Shown here piece by piece: positions 31 to 19,286 of a DNA stretch of 64,000 nt (positions within the stretch are counted from its first letter, which is position 1; each line of letters begins with the position of its first letter). The notes beneath the pieces were generated by a model. The model did no database searches and had not been told where the DNA came from. It saw only the letters and a program-made list of their open reading frames with translations. The DNA is taken from positions 372,001-436,000 of the forward strand of contig NZ_CANLVF010000004.1 in NCBI RefSeq assembly GCF_947494555.1, given 5' to 3'. The stretch is from an uncultured Roseibium sp. (GTDB taxonomy: Bacteria > Pseudomonadota > Alphaproteobacteria > Rhizobiales > Stappiaceae). Position numbers and translations under genes: made by a program.

Positions 31-2364
31 CTATTTGCCTTTCATGCCAGCGGCGCTCTTGATTAGTTCGATGTGGCCCACGGCATATCGTTCGACCACC
101 ACCAAGGTTTCTTTACAAGCGAGCTTCAAATCATCGGGTGGCGGTGCTTCGTCATAATAGGTGCCATGACAGAGCGAATTGATCAGCACACTCTTGATAC
201 TCATACCATCTTCGCTGGCAAGAAAGGCTATGAAATCTTGCACGGATTGCGATTTGTCAGGCCTGCAAAAACGACCGACAGCCTCTAGGACGGATCGAAT
301 TGCATTGCCAGTACCGTGGTCTGGATCATTCCCATTCGCGACCTGATAGACATGCTCCAATTGCCGCTCGAATGGAGCAACATACTTTCGCAAGTGTGTG
401 AGCTTGTGCGTTGCACCTTCGTTGTGCAATGAAAACGTCGCTTCTGGCTTCACAACAGCATTTGTCCGAGAGATGTTGAAAAAATAGCTGCTGTGGGTCA
501 GTACAAGCAGATTTGGCCTCAGGTTTTTGTTGCCATCGATCTTGCCGGGATTTGTAGAAACCTCGCCCTGGTCTGAAATATTCAAGTTCTTAAGCGTTTG
601 CGCTATCGAAAACACAAAATCATAGGACATCGAAGTAACTGGGTCATCGAAGACAAGGAATAGCTTCCGGTAGTCGGATACTGCTTCCACTTTTCGGTGC
701 ACGCACGCGACAAAGTAGCAAAACGCAATTGCGGTCTTCTCTCCATCGCTTAGTGTTCGATGCGGCCCTCGTGCCATTTCCTGATCGCCCCGCTTCAACA
801 CGAAACTAGTTCGATCAAACAGGTACTTGTCGGCGAAGAATTCTTTCAGCAGTAACTCGAAAGTGTCCGCTACGCGATCTCGGGCTTTTGTCGAAGGGCT
901 CGACTTTTCGAGTTCGTTCAGCTCCTGTTCCCTATTATGTGCCTCAACACTGAGAGTTCTCAGTGCCTCAATATCGGCCCAGTTTTCTATAGCGAACTCA
1001 CGCTCAAATACGGAGCACGCCTTGCGCTGCAGAGCTTTGCGCTCGTCATCCGCCTTTTCAACCGCCTGGGATAGCTCAGATGCTCTATCGTTATTCCTTT
1101 CTATGACTTTGTTGACTTGGGCGATGCTCTCAGCCAGATCTTCTGAAGGCAAGGCAAGTGCTGCCATAAGCGCTCCTGCCTTCCGCTCTATCGCCGTCTT
1201 TATTGATGAAATCGCAGTTCGTGCTTGGACAAATGCAACTTCACATGAGCCCATTGAGATATCCTTCTTGGATGGCACAAAACGCTTAAGGTCGTCATAA
1301 TGAGACTTCTGTCTCGCAATGTGCCTCTCGGTCTCGTTCAGCTCATCCTCTTTCCTTTCGAGCTTGCGAAGGAAGTCTCGAAGCTCATCTTTGTGCTTCT
1401 CCTCTTCATCGGTGAAGTACTCAATGTAAGCATCGACAATTGCCTTGGGATCGGGAGCGGTGATGCCTTGCTCGCAAAAGGGGCATTCTGTTCGATGCTC
1501 GTCTTGAACAATCTGTGCGCCTTCTTTGTAGAAGCCGTGATGTACATCGATTTTTTTCTTAATGCCCTCTGAAACACTCGAGGGCGATGTCACCTTCTGA
1601 AGCGAACTTTCGAGCGCGCCCAAATCTATATTGTTGGGGGATACGAGTGCCACGGGCTCAGGATAGATAGGCTCCGCTGGTATTGATTTCAGGCTGTCAA
1701 GGTCCTTCAAGATATCGACGAAGCTTTGCTCTGGAGGGTCTGGTTTGTCCCTGTAGCGTTGAAGAAGCTTACCAAAACTTAGTTCAGCGTACTCTTTGAG
1801 GCGCTTGTTGATGCCAGCCTTCTCGCTGAGCTCTTCGAGTTTTTCCTTCTCAAACTTGTTATTAATAGAGGAGAATGCCGCATGCTCCTTGCTTTGCGCA
1901 TCACCAAGTGCGTGTTGTGCATCTTTGAGCTTGATGTTGTCGCTATCGACAGCGATCTCATTTTCGATCTCACCGTCAATCTCATATTTCCGTTCTCTTA
2001 GTTCATCTTGGACGAAGTCTTCGGAGAAAACGTGAAATAGGGTATCAGCGATGGTCGCACCAACAATGTCGCCGGTCTTTTCAAGAGCAAGGGATCCAAG
2101 GGTTTCTGTTCCGCGCGAAAACGAGAAACGCCCTTTGCCATCCGGCGCCTCGTCGGAGACGAGGTAGAATGCTGCCTTGGTAACATCCTCTCGCTGTCCA
2201 TGCAGATCAAGGTAACGAAACGCCCGCGACAGGAATGATTTTCCCGTTCCGTTTCGTGCGAAGATTAGATTCTGAGCATGTTTTGTAAGCTCGCCGTCCA
2301 ACGAGAAAATGGGCCCCAGGTAACGAGCTGAGATAGAAAAACTTGGCGTTGGCGCTGTACTCAT
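31..2364 (-). CDS. AAA_13 family ATPase, RloC-like anticodon nuclease candidate
   Basis: 777 residues. The ATPase head is split: a P-loop ending GTGKS (residues 39-43) at the N terminus, and an ABC-type signature LSDGEK (538-543) plus Walker B LFLVFDD (568-574) near the C terminus. The middle is charged and coiled-coil-like and carries CPFC at 294-297, a CxxC suited to a Rad50-type zinc hook. After the ATPase head come R690 and E694 (spacing 4) and an NSLCH segment with H733. Anticodon nucleases PrrC and RloC use an Arg-Glu-His triad with the same Arg-Glu spacing, and RloC combines it with a zinc-hook coiled coil. I infer an RloC-like, phage-responsive tRNase. It could instead be an AAA_13 protein of other function. 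The gene looks AT-richer than the core genes and stands alone. Confidence 0.65.
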   Translation of the reverse strand: MSTAPTPSFSISARYLGPIFSLDGELTKHAQNLIFARNGTGKSFLSRAFRYLDLHGQREDVTKAAFYLVSDEAPDGKGRFSFSRGTETLGSLALEKTGDIVGATIADTLFHVFSEDFVQDELRERKYEIDGEIENEIAVDSDNIKLKDAQHALGDAQSKEHAAFSSINNKFEKEKLEELSEKAGINKRLKEYAELSFGKLLQRYRDKPDPPEQSFVDILKDLDSLKSIPAEPIYPEPVALVSPNNIDLGALESSLQKVTSPSSVSEGIKKKIDVHHGFYKEGAQIVQDEHRTECPFCEQGITAPDPKAIVDAYIEYFTDEEEKHKDELRDFLRKLERKEDELNETERHIARQKSHYDDLKRFVPSKKDISMGSCEVAFVQARTAISSIKTAIERKAGALMAALALPSEDLAESIAQVNKVIERNNDRASELSQAVEKADDERKALQRKACSVFEREFAIENWADIEALRTLSVEAHNREQELNELEKSSPSTKARDRVADTFELLLKEFFADKYLFDRTSFVLKRGDQEMARGPHRTLSDGEKTAIAFCYFVACVHRKVEAVSDYRKLFLVFDDPVTSMSYDFVFSIAQTLKNLNISDQGEVSTNPGKIDGNKNLRPNLLVLTHSSYFFNISRTNAVVKPEATFSLHNEGATHKLTHLRKYVAPFERQLEHVYQVANGNDPDHGTGNAIRSVLEAVGRFCRPDKSQSVQDFIAFLASEDGMSIKSVLINSLCHGTYYDEAPPPDDLKLACKETLVVVERYAVGHIELIKSAAGMKGK

Positions 2365-2683
2365 AGTGTCTCACCCAAATCGCCTCGAGCCTATCACCAA
2401 CGCATCAATTGATCCAAGGGTTGAATGACTGGATGCAAATACTATCGAGGGTAGTGCCATGAAGCACCAAGCAGACGACCGCTTTCCAGCTGCTGTAGCT
2501 GAATAGTCATACGCGCAAAGAAGATGACCCAGCCCCCTGATCCGGGCCGTTCAAGCGTAGTATCCGTTCTCGTTTTTTTCTGATGTTTTGGGTCGGGTCA
2601 AGGCCTGCTGAGCGGAGCCTTTGCGGAGCGGGATCGATAGTGGCGATACCACGCATTTCCGGCTCCAGCGCCTATGCCGTTAG
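2365..2683. other. Intergenic stretch between the RloC-like gene and the helicase remnant
   Basis: Contains the upstream region of the RloC-like gene, with only a weak purine-rich stretch before its ATG. No convincing ORF, RNA or repeat was seen. Probably decayed island DNA. Confidence 0.4.
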
Positions 2684-3018
2684 CTGATCGCGCCATGGTG
2701 CGGGATCGCGCGCAATCCGCAGGAGGAATGGGAGCTCTTTTCCGAGATGGTTGCGAATACCGACCCAGCACAGAGCAAGGGCATTGCCCTTAACAGCTTC
2801 GCCGGCCGGATCGAAGGTACCAGGCGCTCAGTTTGAGTACGCTGCACAGCGCGCAGGGGCGTGAGTTCGACGCAGTCATCCTCTACGGCATGAACAAGGG
2901 GCCATTCCGAGTCAGCGTGACCGGAAATCGCAAAGTGCGCTACGCGAAGCTCGGCGCCATTCCTGTCGTTCGTTCCGACCGCAGCAAATGCCCGCTTCCC
3001 GCCCGACCAAGACCTTAG
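2684..3018 (+). pseudogene. Frameshifted remnant of a UvrD/Rep-type helicase
   Basis: Two pieces in different frames join into one recognisable helicase segment. The first frame (2684 to about 2832) reads through FSEMVANTDPAQSKG and NSFAGRIEGTRR, then stops at TGA. The second frame (from about 2836) continues with STLHSAQGREFDAVILYGMN, the conserved motif around helicase motif V of UvrD/PcrA proteins. The frame changes near 2832-2836. After about 2901 similarity to the family appears lost and the frame ends at TAG 3016-3018. The ATPase N-terminal motifs are absent, so this is a short internal relic. UvrD-like helicases are common in defence islands (for example Gabija GajB), but which one this was cannot be told. 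Confidence 0.65.
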
Positions 3019-3364
3019 AGAGTGGAGCAAAAAGTCATGGTCTTTGTGTCCAGACTGCTTTCGCGTTCTAAATCGCGAATGTCTGGTTTTGGGAGCTGGC
3101 CCTGAAACGTTGAGCGACGACTTGAGGTGCAAGGACACCATTTGCGAATTCGAGTCTGAGGTCAGGAATGAGCGAAAAACGCGCTTCCCAAAAAGGAAAG
3201 CTGGTAATCAATCGGTCGAACCAAATCCAAATAGCCTTGGACCCCTTGCCAAATTGTGGACAAAGAAAATTGTTTTGCGTGCCGACACGGTGCCGACACA
3301 GCGCAGGTTCCGGCGAGGTTGCGATTTGCATCTATTTTTTAATTGTTTAAAATCAATCAGTTAA
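3019..3364. other. Non-coding stretch between helicase remnant and tRNA-Arg
   Basis: No credible gene. Short open frames here have no recognisable domains. A 10-base direct repeat GTGCCGACAC occurs at 3279-3288 and 3290-3299, about 65 bases from the tRNA 3' end. The last 40 bases are AT-rich. The position next to a tRNA 3' end suits an eroded attachment region, but no second copy of the tRNA end was found in the window. Confidence 0.4.
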
Positions 3365-3441
3365 TGGCGACCCCGACAGGATTCGAACCTGTGACCCTCA
3401 GATTAGGAATCTGATGCTCTATCCTGCTGAGCTACGGGGCC
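3365..3441 (-). tRNA. tRNA-Arg (anticodon CCT)
   Basis: Reading the minus strand gives a 77-base cloverleaf. The seven-base acceptor stem has 5' GGCCCCG against 3' CGGGGTC (one G-U pair), followed by discriminator G and an encoded CCA. The anticodon stem is TCAGA/TCTGA around the loop TTCCTAA, placing CCT at positions 34-36, which decodes AGG. The T arm contains GTTCGAATC. The 3' end points to the accessory DNA at 1-3364, the usual orientation for integration into a tRNA gene. Confidence 0.95.
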
Positions 3442-3747
3442 TTATGCGCTCGATTAGCATGATTTGCGGGACTTTGCGAGCCCAGGCGCGTTGCAGTTGG
3501 TCACTATTAACATCCTGCCGGGTGGCTGCGACAGACATGCGTTTTGCGGCGCATCACGATAACGTTTCACGCTTTTGTCTCGGACTTGCCTTATTCGCTG
3601 CTTAGCAACGGAAGTAACATGCGCAGGCAACTTCGCATCGCTCTTGCGAATCGTGCTCGAAGACTGGTTAAGAGCTGCGCCGGGATTCTGGATCGGTATG
3701 CCGGCAGTCGGAAATTCCTGCGAGTGAATTGGAAGCAAGGGGGATTG

Positions 3748-4680
3748 GTGTTCGACACTTTCAGGCGAAATAAGCGGCAGAATGCCGTTTACGGCGGGTG
3801 TTTCAGCATTCGTCTGGCTGTCCTTGCGCTTTGCGGGGGTTGCGGGCTTGTTGTGTTGACGGGAACGGCTATGGCCGAAAGCCGAACGGCACCGGGCGGC
3901 GGGAACGATCCGTCAAGCGCCGCGCTGTCGTCGTGTGTTTCTGGTGAAACGACAGGTATCGATGTGACATCCACCTCTGAGGCGGGTCTTTTCGTCGACA
4001 CTGACGGACACAGGTATTTCGCAACGGAGATTTCCTCCTCTCATATTGAACCGCGTTCTGCAGACGCGTCGCCCTCCTCCAGCGAAGGTGGCCAAGCGCG
4101 ACTGGTCGCGGTACCGGCGGGAAAGCCAAATCGCTGGGGATTCATCCCTGCCTGGATCATAGACCACACGGACCCGCGGCCACGTCTTTATCAGGCGGAG
4201 CAGCTGTTAACAGGCAATGCGCTGTTTTCGCCCGACATAGCCGCATCCGAGTGTGCTATATCGCTCCGGAGCGCTGAGGCCGTTGCACGGCGAGCCAAAT
4301 CCGGAGCTTGGGGTACAGCGGGTGGTGCGCGCGTTTTTTCAGGGGCCGCGCCAGCTTCGTTCCAGGGCAACGCCGGACGCTATGTCATTGCACGTGGGCG
4401 GATAGTTTCACTTGGAAAAACACGAAGTACCCGCTATCTCAATTTTGGCAGACACTGGAAGACGGATCTGACCGTGACACTCAAATCTTCCGACGAAACG
4501 GCGTTCAACGAGGGGCTTGGCGCCAACGGTTGGCAGATCGACGACCTGACAGGGCTCTTTGTTGAAGTCAGAGGTGTCTTGCAGGAAAAGGACGGACCGC
4601 TGATCGCGCTCCGGCATCCTGGGCAAATACGGGTATTGGAAGGCAAAAGGGCAGGACGTGGCGGCCAAAACAGCAACTGA
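3748..4680 (+). CDS. Secreted SNase-like (thermonuclease-fold) protein
   Basis: 310 residues if the GTG at 3748 is used. I chose it because a purine-rich AAGGGGGA (3738-3745 region) sits just upstream, and the resulting N terminus has basic residues then a hydrophobic signal sequence (about residues 19-43, ending TAMA). The frame stays open farther upstream. The exported part has short blocks resembling staphylococcal-nuclease-type proteins: a DTDGHRYF segment like the start of the OB fold, and an AEAVARRAKSGAW helix late in the domain, followed by a second beta-rich region. The catalytic Arg/Glu residues of true nucleases are not obvious, so activity is doubtful. It overlaps the following M48 peptidase gene by 23 bases, so the two are probably co-translated. 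Confidence 0.6.
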   Translation: MFDTFRRNKRQNAVYGGCFSIRLAVLALCGGCGLVVLTGTAMAESRTAPGGGNDPSSAALSSCVSGETTGIDVTSTSEAGLFVDTDGHRYFATEISSSHIEPRSADASPSSSEGGQARLVAVPAGKPNRWGFIPAWIIDHTDPRPRLYQAEQLLTGNALFSPDIAASECAISLRSAEAVARRAKSGAWGTAGGARVFSGAAPASFQGNAGRYVIARGRIVSLGKTRSTRYLNFGRHWKTDLTVTLKSSDETAFNEGLGANGWQIDDLTGLFVEVRGVLQEKDGPLIALRHPGQIRVLEGKRAGRGGQNSN

Positions 4681-6178
4681 ATTGCGTCGCAATGATCGTT
4701 TGAGACTGGCGGCTGCGATTGCAAAGCAGTCCGCCGTCAGGCGGTTGCGTCTGCTTTTGGCCTGTCTTGTGTCTTTCACAGTCGCCTCATGTCAGCTGCT
4801 CGGCGATGGCACAAGTGTGGGGTCGGTTTCGCCGGGGACCCTGCGGCCGAGCCTGACCAACGACATCGGTGCCCGTGAGCACCCGCGCGTCGTTGCCACA
4901 TATGGCGGCGTCTACAAGGATCCGGGTGCGGAAAGAGCCGTAGCCAGTGTTGTCGGGCGGTTGGTTGCCGCTTCGGACGACCCGTCTCAAAGCTACAAGA
5001 TCACGATATTGAATTCGCCGGCAATCAACGCCTTCGCTTTGCCAGGCGGGTATCTTTACATTACGCGCGGGCTGCTGGCGCTCGCCAATGACACGTCGGA
5101 AGTTGCGGCCGTGCTCGCGCATGAAATGGCTCATGTGACCGCCAATCACGCCATCAAGCGGCAACAGCGGGCGGAAGCCAAGCAGCTTGTTAACAGGATC
5201 CTGACCGACGTGGTGCAGGATTCAGAAGAAGCACGCAAGGCCATCATTTCGTCCCAGCTGTCTTTTGCCCGCTTCAGCCAGGTTCAGGAACTTGAAGCAG
5301 ATGCGATCGGCGTCAGGACGCTTGCCAAAGCGAAGTTCGACCCATATGCGGCTGCACGGTTTCTGAGGTCCATGGCGGCCTATGCGCGTTATCAGTCGGC
5401 GGACAAGACCTCGACAAGCGCGCCGGACTTTCTGTCATCGCACCCCTCGACACCGGAGCGGCTGCAAATTGCGGTGAAATCCGCCCGCCAGATCGGTGCG
5501 CCAGGCATCGGCGAACGGGACCGTGACAGGTATCTTACCCAGATTGACGGAATGCTTTATGGGGATGACCCGCTTGAAGGGTTCGTGCGCGGCCGATCCT
5601 TCCTGCACAAGGCGCTCGGTATCGGTTTCACGGTGCCTGCCGGGTACATTCTGGAGAATTCAACGGAAGCAGTTCTTGCCAGCAACGGAGACGGCACTGC
5701 GATCAGGTTCGACGGTGCGGATGTCAGCGGTTTTTCGAGCCTTGCCGACTATATGAAGTCTGGCTGGATCAACGGGCTGCTACCTGAAAGCGTGCGTGAA
5801 ACCACAATCAACGGACTGCCTGGTGTGACCGGGGCCGCCATTACCCAGGGCTGGTCCTTCAGGATTGCCGTCGTCCGAATTGGACGCACCGGCTACCGGT
5901 TTATCTTCGCAAGCAGGTCGCCCAATCAACGCTTTGATGAGGATTTCCGCCAGACAGCAGACAGTTTCCGGCAACTGACGCCGACTGAACGCGCCCGTCT
6001 GCAATCGCTGCGCCTCAAGGTCGTCAAGACCAAGCCCGGCGACACGCCGCGTAAACTCGCTGTCGGGATGAGCGGCGTCGAGCCATCGAGACGATTGGAG
6101 TTTTTCTCAATCCTCAACGACCTCGACCCGAACAAGACCATTGCGACGGGAACCGCAGTCAAGCTGGTCGTTGAATAG
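4658..6178 (+). CDS. M48 family metalloprotease, predicted lipoprotein
   Basis: 506 residues from GTG 4658, preceded by AGGGCAGGA. The N terminus is unusually long and basic before a hydrophobic stretch and a lipobox-like VASC, with C45 as the likely lipidated cysteine. The M48 domain carries the zinc motif HEMAH (155-159) and the downstream ELEAD (211-215), whose first Glu is the expected third ligand. This pattern matches BepA/LoiP-type periplasmic proteases that act in outer-membrane protein quality control. The C-terminal 60 residues (KPGDTPRKLA to VKLVVE) resemble a LysM-like or SPOR-adjacent tail seen in many alphaproteobacterial members. Substrate is unknown. It is translationally coupled to the SNase-like gene upstream. 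Confidence 0.85.
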   Translation: MAAKTATELRRNDRLRLAAAIAKQSAVRRLRLLLACLVSFTVASCQLLGDGTSVGSVSPGTLRPSLTNDIGAREHPRVVATYGGVYKDPGAERAVASVVGRLVAASDDPSQSYKITILNSPAINAFALPGGYLYITRGLLALANDTSEVAAVLAHEMAHVTANHAIKRQQRAEAKQLVNRILTDVVQDSEEARKAIISSQLSFARFSQVQELEADAIGVRTLAKAKFDPYAAARFLRSMAAYARYQSADKTSTSAPDFLSSHPSTPERLQIAVKSARQIGAPGIGERDRDRYLTQIDGMLYGDDPLEGFVRGRSFLHKALGIGFTVPAGYILENSTEAVLASNGDGTAIRFDGADVSGFSSLADYMKSGWINGLLPESVRETTINGLPGVTGAAITQGWSFRIAVVRIGRTGYRFIFASRSPNQRFDEDFRQTADSFRQLTPTERARLQSLRLKVVKTKPGDTPRKLAVGMSGVEPSRRLEFFSILNDLDPNKTIATGTAVKLVVE

Positions 6179-7910: not shown

Positions 7911-8362
7911 ACTTGTATTTTCTCCTGCGCAGTTTTCGATCCGTTCGGACCTGTGTTGGGCCGTGATCAGGCCACCTGTTTTTTGCGACACGAACCCCGC
8001 CGAGCGATCCGATGTGGAACGCCTGTTGATATGCGGCGTGTCAGGGCTGGTCAGTCGACGATTTCCACTATAGAACCTTGTTCAGTCATAAGAGCTGCCG
8101 GGAGCCGACGTATCCGGTTTCGCTGGGATCCGGAAAACGTTTTGAAAACTCCGTTTTGGGGGTTATTCTCGTGGTTGGCGACTGTTCATAATATGTAACA
8201 TACTTTTGTGGAAAATTAAAGCGTTGCGCTTTCGTGGTGCACAATCACCACAAAACAACAGCACATTTTCCAATTTAAGCGACTGAATTTAATGTCGAAA
8301 ATTTGATCGCAGGCGCAATAATTCAGCGTGCGGCAGACTGACGCACGCGTAAAGTGTTCGAA
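7911..8362. other. Intergenic region between carD and fdxA
   Basis: About 450 bases that include the carD promoter region and the fdxA 3' flank. An inverted repeat GTGGTG/CACCAC (8234-8251, 6-base spacer) is the only clear structure. It has no T tract on either strand, so I do not call it a terminator. No coding signal was seen. Confidence 0.4.
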
Positions 8363-8695
8363 TCAAGAAGGCGGATTTGCGGAGAAATACTGCTCAAGTT
8401 TCTTTTCTTTGCCGTCGAATTCTTCGGCTTCCGGAAGTGGATCCTTCTTTTCCGTAATGTTTGGCCACTTTTCCGAATATTCGGCGTTCAGCTCGATCCA
8501 CTTCTCAAGGCCGGGCTCAGTGTCGGGAAGAATGGCTTCCGCCGGACACTCGGGTTCACAGACACCGCAGTCAATACACTCGTCCGGATTGATGACGAGC
8601 ATGTTTTCGCCTTCGTAGAAGCAATCGACAGGGCATACTTCCACGCAGTCGGTGTATTTGCATTTGATGCAGTTGTCTGTGACGACGTAGGTCAT
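8363..8695 (-). CDS. fdxA: 7Fe ferredoxin FdxA
   Basis: 110 residues from ATG 8695; the frame is open upstream, but homologous ferredoxins begin at MTYVV. The N-terminal half carries two cysteine clusters: C9, C17 and CP21 with CVEVCPVDC, and [12 protein letters not shown]. This is the arrangement of a [3Fe-4S] plus [4Fe-4S] dicluster ferredoxin. The acidic C-terminal extension ([20 protein letters not shown]) is typical of alphaproteobacterial FdxA. It is a soluble electron carrier. It lies between carD and the S4-domain gene in the same orientation, with gaps long enough for its own promoter. Confidence 0.93.
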
Positions 8696-8915
8696 CGTTG
8701 TCCTCGCTGTGTACCGGCGCAAGCGCTGAAAACCAGCTGGTCTCGCTCTGTCCGGCACTCGTTTTCGTGCAGCGCGTCCTTCGCCGGCGCACGGTTGGTA
8801 TTTCAGATCGATGTTGCTATCGTTTTTACCTGACACGCGCAAGCGTACAACGTCGCACAATCATCGCTCACAAGAGAAAGTTATTTCCTTTTGGCGTCGC
8901 AAAGCGGAATCCGGT

Positions 8916-9329
8916 TCAGTTATCGCTGCGAAACGCGTCGAGTTTACGCCGGTCGCGCTTTGTCGGCCTGCCTGCGCCCGCCTCCCGCTGACCAGGTCGC
9001 GGCGGTGGCGAGGCCTGCTTAGGCGGCGGTGGCGGTGAAAGGTCCTCATAGAGCTTGCGGGCCTCTTCGTAGGGGCCCCGGCGCTTGCCGAGCGCCGCGA
9101 CTTTCAGCACCAGTACCTTGCGCTCCAGTCCAATGGTCAGAACATCTCCGACCCTTACGGATTTGCTGGACGAGGAGATCTTGTCCTTGTTGACGCGGAT
9201 GTGGCCAGAGGTTGCCAGTTTTTGAGCGAGCGATCTGGACTTCGTGACCCTGGCATACCAGAGCCACTTGTCAACGCGCAGGCTGGCACCGGCGGAGCCA
9301 GATGCCTCTTGTGTATCACCGGCCGGGAT
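8916..9329 (-). CDS. S4-domain RNA-binding protein (Hsp15-like), non-canonical ATC start
   Basis: The coding frame is clear from RVDKWLWYARV through a full S4 fold to a basic and proline-rich tail (about 137 residues). S4 proteins of the HslR/Hsp15 type bind rRNA on stalled 50S subunits. Back to an in-frame TGA at about 9390 there is no ATG, GTG or TTG before the GTG at 9110, which would remove nearly the whole S4 domain. At the end of the helicase gene the sequence reads TAATC, where the common coupled arrangement would be TAATG, with an AAGGA about nine bases upstream. I therefore place the start at ATC 9329-9327, overlapping the helicase stop by one base. A mutated ATG or a sequencing error are alternatives. 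Confidence 0.7.
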   Translation of the reverse strand: MPAGDTQEASGSAGASLRVDKWLWYARVTKSRSLAQKLATSGHIRVNKDKISSSSKSVRVGDVLTIGLERKVLVLKVAALGKRRGPYEEARKLYEDLSPPPPPKQASPPPRPGQREAGAGRPTKRDRRKLDAFRSDN

Positions 9330-13343: not shown

Positions 13344-16300
13344 TTGGCTATAACAAAAATTCTCGTTGCGAACCGGTCGGAGATTGCAATCCGGGTTTTC
13401 CGAGCCGCCAACGAGCTCGGATTGAAGACCGTTGCAATCTATGCCGAGCAGGACAAGCTGGCGCTCCACCGGTTCAAGGCGGACGAAGCCTATCAGGTCG
13501 GCAAGGGCCTCGGCCCGATCGAGGCCTACCTGTCCATCGACGAGATCATTCGTGTAGCCAAACTCGCAGGAGCCGATGCGATCCATCCGGGCTACGGCCT
13601 GCTTTCGGAAAGTCCGGAATTCGTCGATGCCTGCGAAACCGCAGGGATCACGTTCATCGGGCCGCGGTCGGACACAATGCGCCGATTGGGCAACAAGGTC
13701 GCGGCGCGCAACCTTGCCATTGACGCAGGTGTTCCGGTTATGCCGGCGACCGACCCCCTGCCTGATGAACTCGAAGAGATCAAGAAACTGGGCCTCGAGA
13801 TCGGTTATCCGGTGATGCTCAAGGCGTCCTGGGGCGGTGGTGGCCGCGGGATGCGCGTTATCCCGGATGAGGCGACGCTGGAGAAGGAGGTTCTTGCCGC
13901 CAAGCGCGAAGCCAAGGCTGCCTTCGGCAAGGACGAGATCTATCTGGAAAAACTTGTCCAACGGGCGCGCCATGTCGAGGTTCAGATCCTCGGCGACGGC
14001 GAGAACGTTGTCCATCTGTTCGAACGCGACTGTTCCATCCAGCGCCGTCACCAGAAGGTGGTGGAGCGTGCACCGGCCCCATATCTTGACGAGACCAAGC
14101 GACGGGAGCTGTGCGAATACGGCCTCAAAATCGGCCGGGCCGTAAACTATCGCGGTGCCGGCACCGTCGAATTCCTGATGGATGCCTCTACCGGCGCAAT
14201 CTATTTCATCGAGGTCAATCCGCGCGTCCAGGTGGAGCATACGGTGACGGAAGAAGTCACCGGTATCGACATCGTGCAGGCGCAGATTCACATCGCTGAC
14301 GGCGCAAAGATCGGGACACCGGAAAGCGGTGTTCCGGCGCAGGAGGACATCCGCCTGAACGGTCACGCCCTGCAGTGCCGCATCACGACAGAAGACCCGG
14401 AGCAGAACTTCATCCCGGACTACGGCCGCATTACCGCTTACCGCGGAGCGACAGGGTTCGGCATACGACTGGACGGCGGAACAGCCTATTCCGGCGCTGT
14501 TATCACACGGTTCTATGATCCGTTGCTCGAGAAGGTCACGGCGTGGGCTCCGAGCGCGGAGGATGCCCGCAAGCGTATGGATCGCGCTCTGCGTGAATTC
14601 CGGATACGAGGTGTCGCGACCAACCTGATTTTCCTGGAAAACATTATCGATCACGCGGATTTCAGGGCGAACAAATACACCACGCGGTTTATCGACGAGA
14701 CGCCGGCTCTGTTCGAGCAGACAAAACGTCAGGACAGGGCGACCAAGCTGCTTACCTATATCGCTGACGTTTCGGTCAACGGGCATCCTGAAACGAAAAA
14801 CCGGGCGCGGCCGCCGGAAGATGTAGCGGCGCCCGTCATTCCCGTTTTCGGTGACGAAAAGCCGGCAGGCACCCGGCAACTGCTTGACGAACTGGGCCCC
14901 AAGGCATTCGCGGCCTGGATGAAGGATCAAAAGCGCGCCCTGATTACCGATACGACGATGCGTGACGGTCACCAGTCGCTGCTCGCAACGCGCATGCGGA
15001 CTCATGATATCGTCAACATCGCGGACGCTTATGCCACGGGCCTGCCGTCGTTGTTTTCGTTGGAGTGCTGGGGCGGTGCGACCTTCGACGTCGCGATGCG
15101 CTTTCTCACGGAAAGTCCCTGGGAACGCCTGCACCACATTCGCGAGAAGGCCCCTAACATCCTGCTGCAGATGCTGCTGCGCGGCTCCAACGGGGTCGGT
15201 TATACAAACTACCCAGACAACGTCGTCAAATACTTCGTAAAACAGGCTGCGGAAAACGGCATCGATCTTTTCCGCGTCTTCGATTGCCTTAACTGGGTCG
15301 AGAACATGCGGGTTTCCATGGACGCGGTTCAGGAAGCCAACAAGCTGTGCGAAGGCGTGCTTTGCTACACGGGCGACATGCTGGACAGCGCCCGGCCGAA
15401 ATACGATCTCAAATACTACGTCGGTCTTGCCAAGGAGCTGGAGGCGGCGGGCGCGCATATTCTCGGCATCAAGGACATGGCGGGTCTTTTGAAACCCGAA
15501 GCAGCGCGCATTCTGATCAAGACGCTGAAGCAGGAAACCGACCTCCCGATCCATTTTCATACCCATGACACGTCAGGGATCGCTGCCGCCAGCATCCTTG
15601 CGGCGATCGAGGCCGGTGCCGATGCCGTCGATGCGGCCATGGACGCGCTTTCAGGTCTCACCTCGCAGCCGTGTTTGGGGTCCATCGTGGAAGCGCTGCG
15701 GGGAAGCGAGCACGACACCGGGCTGGATGCCAAGACGATCCGGCAGATTTCCTTCTATTGGGAGGCGGTGAGAACACAGTACCGCGCCTTTGAAAGCGAT
15801 CTGCGCTTTGGTGCATCCGAGGTCTACCTGCATGAAATGCCGGGCGGGCAGTTCACCAACCTGAAGGAACAGGCGCGGTCGCTTGGTCTTGAGACCCGCT
15901 GGCACGAGGTTGCCCAGGCCTACGCGGACGTCAACATGATGTTCGGCGATATTGTCAAAGTGACACCGTCGTCGAAGGTCGTCGGCGATATGGCCCTAAT
16001 GATGGTCAGCCAGGGCCTGACGGTTCAGGACGTTGAAGATCCATCCAAGGACGTTGCCTTTCCGGACAGCGTCGTGAAGATGCTTCACGGTGACCTTGGC
16101 CAGTCCCCCGGTGGGTGGCCGGAGGCTCTGCAGAAAAAAGTGCTGAAGGGCGAGGCACCGATCATTGTGCGGCCGGGCTCTCTTCTTGAAGCATCCGATC
16201 TTGAAGCAGAGCGCGATGCTGCCACGGCTGCAACTGGACGCGACATAAGCGATATCGATCTGGCGTCCTACCTCATGTATCCGAAGGTCTTCACCGATTT

Positions 16301-16784
16301 CGACAAGGCGCAACAGCAATACGGGCCAACCTCAGTGTTGCCGACACCGGTCTATTTCTACGGCTTGAACGCGGGCGAAGAGATCTTTGTCGATCTGGAG
16401 CCCGGGAAAACGCTGGTGGTCCGTTGCCAGGCTGTCGGGGAAACGGACGAAAAAGGTGAGAAGAAGGTCTTTTTCGAACTTAACGGCCAGCCAAGAAACG
16501 TCAAGGTGCCCGACAGGGCACATGGTGCAACGGGCGCGGCGGCGATGCGCAAGGCCGAAGACGGCAACGCTGCACATGTCGGCGCGCCGATGCCGGGCGT
16601 CATATCCACCGTTGCCGTTTCATCCGGTCAGGATGTGACTGCAGGCGATGTGCTTGTCTCGATCGAAGCCATGAAAATGGAAACGGCGCTGCATGCCGAG
16701 CGCGACGGCAAAGTGAAAGAAGTTCTGGTCACACCTGGTGCGCAAATTGACGCAAAAGACCTTCTTGTGGTCTTCGAAAGCTGA
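13344..16784 (+). CDS. pyc: Pyruvate carboxylase
   Basis: 1146 residues, full length for the single-chain enzyme. TTG 13344 is taken as the start because AGGGGAGAAGG sits four bases before it and the product begins at the family-typical KILVANRSEIAIR. The biotin carboxylase domain (about 1-455) shows the ATP-grasp KASWGGGGRGMR. The carboxyltransferase domain begins near 537 with DTTMRDGHQSL. The biotinyl domain at the C terminus carries AMKM with K1111 as the biotinylated lysine. It makes oxaloacetate from pyruvate and bicarbonate, feeding the TCA cycle and gluconeogenesis. It is a single gene followed by a hairpin. Confidence 0.97.
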   Translation: MAITKILVANRSEIAIRVFRAANELGLKTVAIYAEQDKLALHRFKADEAYQVGKGLGPIEAYLSIDEIIRVAKLAGADAIHPGYGLLSESPEFVDACETAGITFIGPRSDTMRRLGNKVAARNLAIDAGVPVMPATDPLPDELEEIKKLGLEIGYPVMLKASWGGGGRGMRVIPDEATLEKEVLAAKREAKAAFGKDEIYLEKLVQRARHVEVQILGDGENVVHLFERDCSIQRRHQKVVERAPAPYLDETKRRELCEYGLKIGRAVNYRGAGTVEFLMDASTGAIYFIEVNPRVQVEHTVTEEVTGIDIVQAQIHIADGAKIGTPESGVPAQEDIRLNGHALQCRITTEDPEQNFIPDYGRITAYRGATGFGIRLDGGTAYSGAVITRFYDPLLEKVTAWAPSAEDARKRMDRALREFRIRGVATNLIFLENIIDHADFRANKYTTRFIDETPALFEQTKRQDRATKLLTYIADVSVNGHPETKNRARPPEDVAAPVIPVFGDEKPAGTRQLLDELGPKAFAAWMKDQKRALITDTTMRDGHQSLLATRMRTHDIVNIADAYATGLPSLFSLECWGGATFDVAMRFLTESPWERLHHIREKAPNILLQMLLRGSNGVGYTNYPDNVVKYFVKQAAENGIDLFRVFDCLNWVENMRVSMDAVQEANKLCEGVLCYTGDMLDSARPKYDLKYYVGLAKELEAAGAHILGIKDMAGLLKPEAARILIKTLKQETDLPIHFHTHDTSGIAAASILAAIEAGADAVDAAMDALSGLTSQPCLGSIVEALRGSEHDTGLDAKTIRQISFYWEAVRTQYRAFESDLRFGASEVYLHEMPGGQFTNLKEQARSLGLETRWHEVAQAYADVNMMFGDIVKVTPSSKVVGDMALMMVSQGLTVQDVEDPSKDVAFPDSVVKMLHGDLGQSPGGWPEALQKKVLKGEAPIIVRPGSLLEASDLEAERDAATAATGRDISDIDLASYLMYPKVFTDFDKAQQQYGPTSVLPTPVYFYGLNAGEEIFVDLEPGKTLVVRCQAVGETDEKGEKKVFFELNGQPRNVKVPDRAHGATGAAAMRKAEDGNAAHVGAPMPGVISTVAVSSGQDVTAGDVLVSIEAMKMETALHAERDGKVKEVLVTPGAQIDAKDLLVVFES

Positions 16785-16794
16785 TCGAGAAAAG

Positions 16795-16840
16795 GTGAGC
16801 GGTTCGCACTTTGCTGCGATCCGCTCACTAATACTATGTT
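16795..16840 (+). terminator. Probable terminator after pyc
   Basis: An 8-bp perfect stem, GTGAGCGG (16795-16802) and CCGCTCAC (16821-16828), lies 11 bases after the pyc stop, with a TTTTT run slightly farther on (about 16839). The T tract is displaced, so strength is uncertain. Confidence 0.6.
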
Positions 16841-16972
16841 TTTAGTCGTATAATTCAGCCCAATCACGCGAAATCACGCGTCATCACCGCGCAAGTGAAT
16901 TGTCATCTCTCCCTGATGCCGGAAGCTGATCGAGCCAGGTCTTTTTTAAGACGTTAGCCTAGGGAGAGAACA

Positions 16973-17569
16973 ATGAGGAAGCTACCTGTTTGGCTGGGAG
17001 GTGCAATCGCATCCCTTGTTTTCACGACATCCGCATACGCGGCCTGTGATGTGCAAAAGCCGGGTTACGAGCTCACCGGCGACGAAGCCCAAGCGGTGTA
17101 TGACTGCCTGAAGGCGGATCTGCAGGCAGGATATCAAAAGGGGCAGAAACGCTGGATACCGGAAGCATTTGTCAAGGATTATCCGAATTGGACGAAGGCA
17201 AGCGCTTTTCCCGCAGCGCCCGGATTTCATGGTGGGCGTTTTCTGATGACATATGTGAATTCCATCGGTGCGGATGAATACCTGAAATACAAGCCGGAAG
17301 ACGTCAATGTTCCCGCGGGAACGCAGATTGCAAAGGAATCCTTTGCGGTCAATGACGATGGCAAGGTGAGCAAGGGTCCCCTGTTCCTGATGGAAAAGGT
17401 AGCAGCGGGCAAGTCCCCTGAAACCGGTGACTGGTACTACATGATGGTTGCGCCCAACGGCTCGCCGCAGGCTGTCAACGTGATCACGGCTTGCAGCGAA
17501 TGCCACCTTGAAAACTTTGGTGAACAGGGCGGTCTCGGATACCCGGTTGAGGATGCGCGGATAAAGTAG
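16973..17569 (+). CDS. Cytochrome P460 family protein (c-type haem)
   Basis: 198 residues from ATG 16973, which follows AGGGAGAGAAC. A signal peptide covers about residues 1-23 (ending AYA). The only haem motif is CSECH at 174-178 near the C terminus, as expected for the cytochrome P460/c'-beta fold. Conserved features in between include RFLMTYVN and GPLFLMEKV. Classical P460 oxidises hydroxylamine and c'-beta binds NO; this one may be a periplasmic cytochrome of either type, and the substrate is not predictable. The DUF1254 gene follows in the same orientation after a weak hairpin. Confidence 0.85.
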   Translation: MRKLPVWLGGAIASLVFTTSAYAACDVQKPGYELTGDEAQAVYDCLKADLQAGYQKGQKRWIPEAFVKDYPNWTKASAFPAAPGFHGGRFLMTYVNSIGADEYLKYKPEDVNVPAGTQIAKESFAVNDDGKVSKGPLFLMEKVAAGKSPETGDWYYMMVAPNGSPQAVNVITACSECHLENFGEQGGLGYPVEDARIK

Positions 17570-17595
17570 GCAGCCGGTGTGCCTTACCCTTCAGG

Positions 17596-17622
17596 AGCGG
17601 GATGGATGACACCCCGCTTCTT
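17596..17622 (+). terminator. Weak terminator-like hairpin after the P460 gene
   Basis: AGCGGG (17596-17601) pairs with CCCGCT (17613-17618), followed by a short TCTTG. Only six pairs and a poor T tract. Confidence 0.4.
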
Positions 17623-17720
17623 GAAATTAACGCAGCGTTTATATTGACTTCACCAGTGATTTCGCCAGTCTCGTATCATGCCGCGCAAAGACGCGGTCAG
17701 CTTAGAGGCTGGAGAACATC

Positions 17721-19286
17721 ATGAAAAAATATCTATCGCTGCTCGCACTGCCCTTCCTTTTTCAAAGCCAATTCGGATTTGCCTCCGACAAGACCGTAAC
17801 GCCGCCCGGCTACAACACGCCGATTCCGGAAGACATACTGACGCCGGATGAGGTGGAGACCCGTTTCGGTACGCTGAAATTTGTTGACGGACGCCCCACT
17901 CCGGAAACAAGCGCGCTCATGTTCGACACGCTCGACTTCGTGCGGGGCATGGAAGTTTTCCTGAACTTCATTCCGGCGACGTCGATTGAAGGCATTCGCA
18001 GAGGGATGGCCGATATCGGGGTCGATGCGGTCAACAAATTCGCGGTGTTTGAGGATCTGATGGATTCAAATCCGCTTTTCCTGACGGGCAACACCGATAC
18101 GGTCTACGGTTCTTCGATCCTGGATCTTGAAAGAGACGGGCCGGTCGTGATCGAAGTGCCGAAGGGACAGGGTCCGACAACCGTCAACGATGCCTATTTC
18201 AGGTTCGTCACCGATATGGGAGTCCCGGGCCCCGACAAGGGGGAAGGTGGAAAATACCTCATTCTGCCGCCCGATTATGAAGGTGATCTCGCACCGCCTG
18301 TCGGGGGCTACAAGGCGGAAGTTGACGGTGAAACCTATTTCGTTTCGAAATCAACGAGTTATATCAACTGGTTCATCGCGCGCGGTTTTCTCGTAGACGG
18401 CAAGACGGATACAGCCGTCGAGGCCTATCGAACCGGATTGAGAATCTATCCGCTGCGCGACAAGGCGTCGCCGCCGCCGATGGAATTCATCAATGTCTCC
18501 AAAAAAGTGTTCAATACGATCCATGCAAATACCTTTGAGTTTTACAACGAGCTGAACACTGTCATCCAGAAGGAGCCTGTCTCCACGTTTGACCCCGAGC
18601 TGCGCGGCTTGGCGGCAGCGATCGGAATTGAAAAAGGCAAGGACTTCAGCCCGGACGACCGGATGAGAAAGATCCTCACGGAAGCGGTGGCGGTTGGAAA
18701 TGCCACCGCCAGATCGATCTGGCTGAAGCCGCGTGACAAGGCGGCCTATCTTTACGAAGACAGCGGCTGGTACACCGCGTTCATCGGTGGCAGCTGGCAG
18801 TGGTTGCGCGACGAAGGCAAGGGTGGACGTTACCTTGATGCCAGAACGATGTTTTTCTACATGGCGACGGTCAACACGCCTGCAATGGTGCTGAAGCTTC
18901 CCGGCAAGGGTTCGCAATATGCGCTTAATGTCACCGACAATACCGGGACCTTCCTCGATGGTTCCAGGACCTATTCGCTGACAATACCGGCCGACGTTCC
19001 GGCGAAGGACTTTTGGTCAGTCGTTGTCTACGACCCGCAGACACGTTCTGAATTGCAGACCAGTCAACCGTTCCCGAGCAAGAACAACAAGCGGGACGAA
19101 ATAGTGGCGAATGACGATGGTTCGGTGACGCTTCACTTCGGGCCCGAAGCGCCGCAGGGCAAGGCGCAGAACTGGGTACAGACCGTCGCAAACAAGGGCT
19201 GGTTTGCCATTCTGCGGTTATACGGCCCCGAGAAAGCATGGTTCGAAAAAACCTGGCGGCCGGGGGAAATCATCCCCACCGAGTAA
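17721..19286 (+). CDS. Exported DUF1254/DUF1214 protein
   Basis: 521 residues with a signal peptide of about 21 residues (ends FGFA). The N-terminal half matches the DUF1254 pattern, with TDTVYGSSILDLERDGPVVI and a following FVTDMGVPGPDKGEGG. The C-terminal half matches DUF1214, with FWSVVVYDPQTRSELQ. Members are periplasmic proteins of unknown biochemical role, some annotated near porins or stress genes. The ATG at 17721 follows GGCTGGAGAACATC. It is separate from its neighbours, with a hairpin after the stop. Confidence 0.85.
   Translation: MKKYLSLLALPFLFQSQFGFASDKTVTPPGYNTPIPEDILTPDEVETRFGTLKFVDGRPTPETSALMFDTLDFVRGMEVFLNFIPATSIEGIRRGMADIGVDAVNKFAVFEDLMDSNPLFLTGNTDTVYGSSILDLERDGPVVIEVPKGQGPTTVNDAYFRFVTDMGVPGPDKGEGGKYLILPPDYEGDLAPPVGGYKAEVDGETYFVSKSTSYINWFIARGFLVDGKTDTAVEAYRTGLRIYPLRDKASPPPMEFINVSKKVFNTIHANTFEFYNELNTVIQKEPVSTFDPELRGLAAAIGIEKGKDFSPDDRMRKILTEAVAVGNATARSIWLKPRDKAAYLYEDSGWYTAFIGGSWQWLRDEGKGGRYLDARTMFFYMATVNTPAMVLKLPGKGSQYALNVTDNTGTFLDGSRTYSLTIPADVPAKDFWSVVVYDPQTRSELQTSQPFPSKNNKRDEIVANDDGSVTLHFGPEAPQGKAQNWVQTVANKGWFAILRLYGPEKAWFEKTWRPGEIIPTE

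Follow-up and report, generated by a model that had tools for sequence, protein, structure and literature searches.

The 64,000-nucleotide stretch analysed here (the window; positions 372,001 to 436,000 of contig NZ_CANLVF010000004.1, from an uncultured Roseibium sp.) carries at its left end an rloC-like gene whose 777-amino-acid (aa) product is, judging from sequence, very probably an anticodon nuclease of the RloC type, and thus a member of an already known kind of bacterial self-sacrifice nuclease, one that cuts tRNAs on sensing broken DNA. What the analysis itself shows is the order of the domains, the motifs and their conservation, homology to PrrC, a HEPN-like predicted fold and carriage of the gene on a tRNA-inserted island. 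The gene encodes the motifs of an ATP-binding cassette (ABC) ATPase, a zinc hook and a C-terminal nuclease region, located as follows.

31..2364, (-): rloC-like gene, ATG start, stop included, 777 aa; AAA_13 161 bits, PDC-S06 420 bits
2236..2259, (-): Walker A ARNGTGKS, residues 36-43; motif in the translation
1474..1485, (-): zinc-hook CPFC, residues 294-297, flanked by long predicted helical stretches; Cys identical in 21/21 rows of the family alignment
736..753, (-): ABC signature LSDGEK, residues 538-543; motif and family alignment
643..660, (-): Walker B FLVFDD, residues 569-574; motif and family alignment
493..495, (-): switch histidine H624 (THS), invariant in the 21-row family alignment
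34..375, (-): putative C-terminal HEPN-like nuclease domain, about residues 664-777, from an alignment of 35 domains, a model of the isolated domain and fold matches
295..297, (-): R690, predicted catalytic, R in 35/35 C-terminal domains
283..285, (-): E694, predicted catalytic, E in 33/35 and D in 2/35 C-terminal domains
166..168, (-): H733, predicted catalytic, H in 35/35 C-terminal domains

The ATPase motifs are split along the chain, with Walker A at residues 36-43 and the signature, Walker B and switch histidine (538-543, 569-574 and H624) beyond the hook; CPFC is the sole CxxC of the protein, and the C-terminal triad has the spacing R-X3-E-X38-H. A preliminary description of this DNA had proposed a split Rad50-like head, a CPFC hook at residues 294-297 and a set of R690, E694 and H733 with an Arg-Glu spacing of four. 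All four ATPase motifs are indeed found, the hook is present in the translation with both of its Cys residues the same in all 21 rows of the family alignment, and the three C-terminal residues and their coordinates are correct.

By itself the triad pattern is weak evidence, because R-X3-E-X36-52-H also occurs in 18% of the sequences made by shuffling the C-terminal 173 aa (and in 78% of those made from the whole protein); a CxxC around residues 250-340 arises by chance in 1.1% of shuffles. The triad and the hook are conserved across relatives, and the motif is therefore taken as real. In the family alignment (21 sequences, 3 of them partial) C294, C297, R690, E694, N729, H733 and much of the signature/Walker B region are invariant. 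The spacing from E to H is X37 or X38 in every row (X37 in one relative), and the residue preceding the catalytic His is Cys in 12 rows and Ser in 9. A wider alignment of 35 C-terminal domains, which takes in distant RloC-like proteins from plasmids, viral contigs and genomes together with one hsd-linked PrrC, was used in place of a pattern-only motif script that misplaced sites in 5 of 34 proteins (L002, L012, L058, L062 and L064). Across these 35 domains no column is invariant except those of R690 and H733; position 694 is occupied by Glu in 33 domains and by Asp in the other 2. In the 34-protein panel, each of the 33 non-PrrC proteins has one CxxC, while PrrC has none. (RloC-like AAA_13 proteins with CLLC or CLYC hooks, in which Asp replaces the catalytic Glu, were observed at L161:8435-10726, L162:8310-10601 and L164:8625-10922.)

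Searches with family models agree with this architecture. The Pfam AAA_13 match (161 bits) spans residues 31-733, and PADLOC PDC-S06, a candidate label that appears in a table of predicted systems in the portion of PMC11514479 available, matches over the full length (residues 8-770, 420 bits). The PADLOC PrrC model matches residues 513-741 with 49.7 bits. No NCBIfam model matched the 777-aa protein at E 1, and a sequence search of solved structures returned weak matches only (best E 0.04), mostly to coiled coils.

In the accessible passages of PMC2610378, RloC proteins have the signature R-X3-E-X36-52-H, often with Ser before the His, a CxxC hook and a length of 658-897 aa; the Geobacillus protein cannot cut tRNA without R692, E696 and H737, and the substitution C291G in its hook makes it overactive. 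Like RloC of Geobacillus kaustophilus and Acinetobacter baylyi, the window protein has an ABC head split by a coiled coil, a CxxC hook and a triad of this signature, and its length is close to that of the G. kaustophilus protein (777 versus 804 aa); unlike many RloC proteins, it has Cys rather than the often-found Ser before the catalytic His. The preliminary description had also suggested that the Arg-to-His distance might mark a divergent type. This idea is not supported, as X38 lies inside the X36-52 range given for RloC in those same passages, and the label "divergent" is not needed.

For PrrC, the comparison was made with a 409-aa protein (421 bits with the PADLOC model) encoded between HsdM and Methylase_S genes of another genome. 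The R, E and H of the two proteins are matched (BLASTP E 1e-10 for the single pair; profile probability 96.4%), the E-to-H spacing of this PrrC is X35, and from residue 513 of the window protein onward the ATPase and nuclease motifs are collinear; the triad is common to both. Unlike PrrC (409 aa here, the type being about 400 aa, and lacking a CxxC), the window protein has 777 aa and a hook; and unlike the PrrC gene, window rloC does not lie in a type I hsd operon, its genome having no HSDR_N match. RloC is usually unlinked to restriction-modification; for the window gene the observations point both ways, with no HSDR_N match in the genome but McrBC-like genes about 10 kb away within the island. 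Taken together, the conserved hook, the split ATPase, the C-terminal triad and the collinearity with an hsd-linked PrrC support the RloC-type assignment of the preliminary description.

Modelling suggests that the C-terminal domain weakly resembles HEPN ribonucleases, a superfamily with an alpha-helical fold and conserved catalytic His and Arg. With the isolated domain, the top-ranked solved folds are mostly HEPN, including Csm6 and Las1; the likeness is weak, and Foldseek gave no match below E 0.001. In this model a single helix holds both R690 and E694, and H733 ends another. Residues 728-739 fall below 50 in predicted local distance difference test (pLDDT) score in the full-length model, and the same loop does so in the isolated-domain model; whether the three residues meet, a check proposed in the preliminary description, is thus answered only in part.

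The gene is part of a block of mobile DNA lodged at a tRNA-Arg gene, whose relevant features are these.

3365..3441, (-): tRNA-Arg (anticodon CCT), island integration site, from a tRNA call; flank homology to congeners starts near its 3' end
3364..3409, (.): 46-bp island-end repeat, partner at G000:C4:339091-339136, outside the window, 45/46 identical
L026:6155-8005 (+) and 8010-9080 (+): McrBC-like restriction genes with MrcB_N domain, same island
L026:13296-14501 (+) and 14498-17902 (+): SbcD/SbcC-like (YhaO/YhaN-type) pair, left of the window (G000:C4), same island
L026:17959-19302, (-): FRG-domain gene, between the SbcC-like gene and rloC, on the strand of rloC; match below the Pfam cut-off

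The repeat copies the 3' end of the tRNA-Arg gene on the same strand about 36 kb apart and, given where its partner sits, the island spans about 36.3 kb. The flank was compared with 30 congeneric genomes besides its own, the query being window 2365-4700, to the right of the rloC reading frame. Among the matches listed, those around the tRNA start no more than about 20 bases from its 3' end, and on the island side there are few and short ones (repeat ~2525-2629 and 2949-3008). In three relatives (G024, G020 and G013) the tRNA end is directly followed by 15 to 36 bp of the DNA found left of the far repeat copy, which is what a site lacking this island should look like; the same genomes carry other DNA further along from this junction. 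The island DNA that had been apparent to the preliminary description is thus borne out by the repeat and by the boundary of congener homology at the tRNA end. Just inside the far end is a tyrosine integrase with an arm-binding domain, and the island further holds a serine recombinase, RepB/ParB proteins, a CHC2/Toprim primase-like gene, a second integrase and a HIRAN gene, in addition to the McrBC-like genes, the SbcD/SbcC-like pair and the FRG-domain gene. The rloC gene has a guanine-plus-cytosine content of 49.3%, versus 57.4% for window 3365-64000. (The tRNA-Arg 3' end recurs in two weaker copies left of the island, at G000:C4:337406-337444 and 334657-334691, which suggests that earlier insertions had stacked up at this site.)

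The gene is rare and patchy, and is carried on islands and plasmids. A genome scan yielded 24 related loci, by their titles mostly alphaproteobacterial. A match was found in 9 of 151 genomes (own included), with just one other close (37% identity), and a strong match, again counting the own genome, in 4 of 385 genomes from the class and in 2 of 397 from the order. The query was covered by at least 80% on 7 plasmid records; phage records gave 2 weak partial matches, and IMG/VR 7 distant loci with best segments of 21-38%. Further clade members, sought in sets of 25, 4, 25 and 397 genomes, amounted to one new locus. (Relatives split in two were seen at L067:8001-10326, on pTB1 of Roseobacter denitrificans, and at L013/L023, from Paracoccus binzhouensis.)

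Among the genes around rloC, a fixed operon partner was rejected: no neighbour cluster covered more than 4 of 22 loci. The FRG-domain gene was likewise not supported as a partner, as no cluster spanning at least 3 of these loci held a window gene besides rloC. (This clustering took in 22 loci, without the later plasmid and genome loci, and its result concerns clusters larger than two.) Pfam and PADLOC tallies of 112 neighbours, with at most 3 members per family among the 25 commonest families, did not by themselves make a SbcD/SbcC pattern evident. Upstream of another rloC relative, L012:3527-6193(+) encodes a protein of 888 aa that matches both AAA_13 and SMC_N, so that two SMC-like ATPases adjoin.

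It has also been considered, as an addition to the RloC-type reading rather than a replacement, that RloC is half of a pair with the SbcD/SbcC-like (Mre11/Rad50-like) nuclease, which would make or trim DNA ends for RloC to read; this is unlikely. (Mre11 is used in describing Rad50 in the available part of PMC3874168.) An SbcD-like phosphoesterase and an SbcC/Rad50-like ATPase stand beside rloC in 8 of 30 loci (the window, L003, L005, L058, L066, L067, L084 and L085), the nearer gene within 1.7 kb, and such neighbours are a difference from the Geobacillus and Acinetobacter RloC genes. The pair was seen in 0 of 20 hsdR loci, the control taken because McrBC (4 of 142 genomes) gave too few, and in 0 of 20 random 20-kb stretches. 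Fisher's test gives P 6e-4 for 8/30 versus 0/40, and 0.005 with related loci merged to 5/23. At least three diverged groups can be told apart among the pairs, which are found on either side of rloC and in either orientation, and three (L161, L162 and L165) of eight other loci drawn from RloC/PrrC-like matches (L159-L166) have one. (One locus with the SbcD/SbcC-like pair, L085, also has a type I HsdR gene, at 14685-17825(-), some 3.6 kb away from its rloC relative.)

Other counts tell against such a partnership. The pair is missing from 22 of the 30 loci, though several are short, which lowers the count. It is also absent from one further locus, L158 (total 8/31), from both PrrC loci viewed, from six loci on plasmids (3-kb flanks) and from seven viral contigs. 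The idea itself arose from the window, L058, L066 and L067, and for the 4/26 loci outside this founding set P is 0.02, a value that continues to include L003 and L005, which by then were part of the sample and are similar to the founding loci L066 and L067; L084 and L085, fetched afterwards, are 2 of five later loci (L083-L086 and L158). In a reverse survey, 20 of 46 listed places of YhaN-like ATPases in genomes of the order gave 1 clear and 1 weak AAA_13 neighbour, and the SbcD type of L066 occurs on 119 plasmid records, versus the 7 with at least 80% coverage of the RloC query. Moreover, close relatives of the window pair (7 viewed of the 20 plasmid records with full coverage, 14 of the 20 being near-identical in score, plus L199 and L200) adjoin not only an AAA_13 gene (L200) but also a GajA/UvrD-type pair (L199 and L219), DUF4297 anti-phage-associated genes (L221-L223), HipA (L220 and L225) and AbiE (L224). 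The GajA/UvrD-type pair is presumably Gabija-like, as labelled from its domains. Standing beside several defence systems, the SbcD/SbcC-like pair therefore appears to accompany defence systems generally, and its link with rloC may be one that is general to defence islands. Literature searches, judged mainly from their listings, showed no published report of rloC with SbcD/SbcC-like neighbours, which does not prove that none exists. A broader version, again an improbable one, is a two-stage defence in this alphaproteobacterial clade, in which a neighbouring, interchangeable SbcD/SbcC-like pair would attack or process DNA ends and RloC would read the same ends and stop translation, the pair being a DNA-end module shared by several defence systems.

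Less probable still is an ABC-HEPN ribonuclease of the same build that would act on a substrate other than the tRNA anticodon, such as mRNA or rRNA. HEPN ribonucleases differ in target, according to the available portion of PMC3710099, Csm6 and Las1 are among the fold matches, and immediately downstream of the catalytic His the window clade is unlike the RloC-like proteins more distant from it. Against this, PrrC and RloC, the characterised relatives with the same triad and head, both cut tRNA anticodons, as stated in the accessible part of PMC2610378.

That the protein might instead serve in DNA repair, as a Rad50-like protein whose C-terminus is dead or no nuclease, is very improbable: its head resembles those of Rad50 and SMC and, like Rad50/SbcC, it has a split head, a coiled coil and a CxxC hook, but unlike them it carries a predicted C-terminal nuclease region (Rad50 and SbcC are without one in the account that the accessible part of PMC2610378 gives), the triad is the most conserved part of its C-terminus, and the gene is rare and found on islands and plasmids.

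For the RloC-type nuclease, a mechanism can be proposed by analogy with published RloC work, from which the sensing of DNA ends, the cutting of tRNA with excision of the wobble nucleotide and the role against phage are all inferred. The Rad50-like ATPase head, with a coiled coil folding back at the CPFC zinc hook, would sense DNA ends, and ATP turnover on linear DNA would release the C-terminal HEPN-type ribonuclease, RloC being activated by linear DNA and ATP and restrained by its zinc hook. R690, E694 and H733 would then cut the tRNA anticodon loop, probably removing the wobble nucleotide. Consequently, translation would stop, limiting a phage that had damaged the cell's DNA or beaten restriction.

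The window gene adds a well-conserved, mostly alphaproteobacterial clade of RloC to a family of which few members have been studied, and in the RloC/PrrC sample no position is fixed other than two of the three predicted catalytic residues. If the recurring SbcD/SbcC-like neighbours matter, they would connect the processing of DNA ends with defence by tRNA cutting in a way that can be tested, and such a link, if true, would bear on how RloC is triggered during infection.
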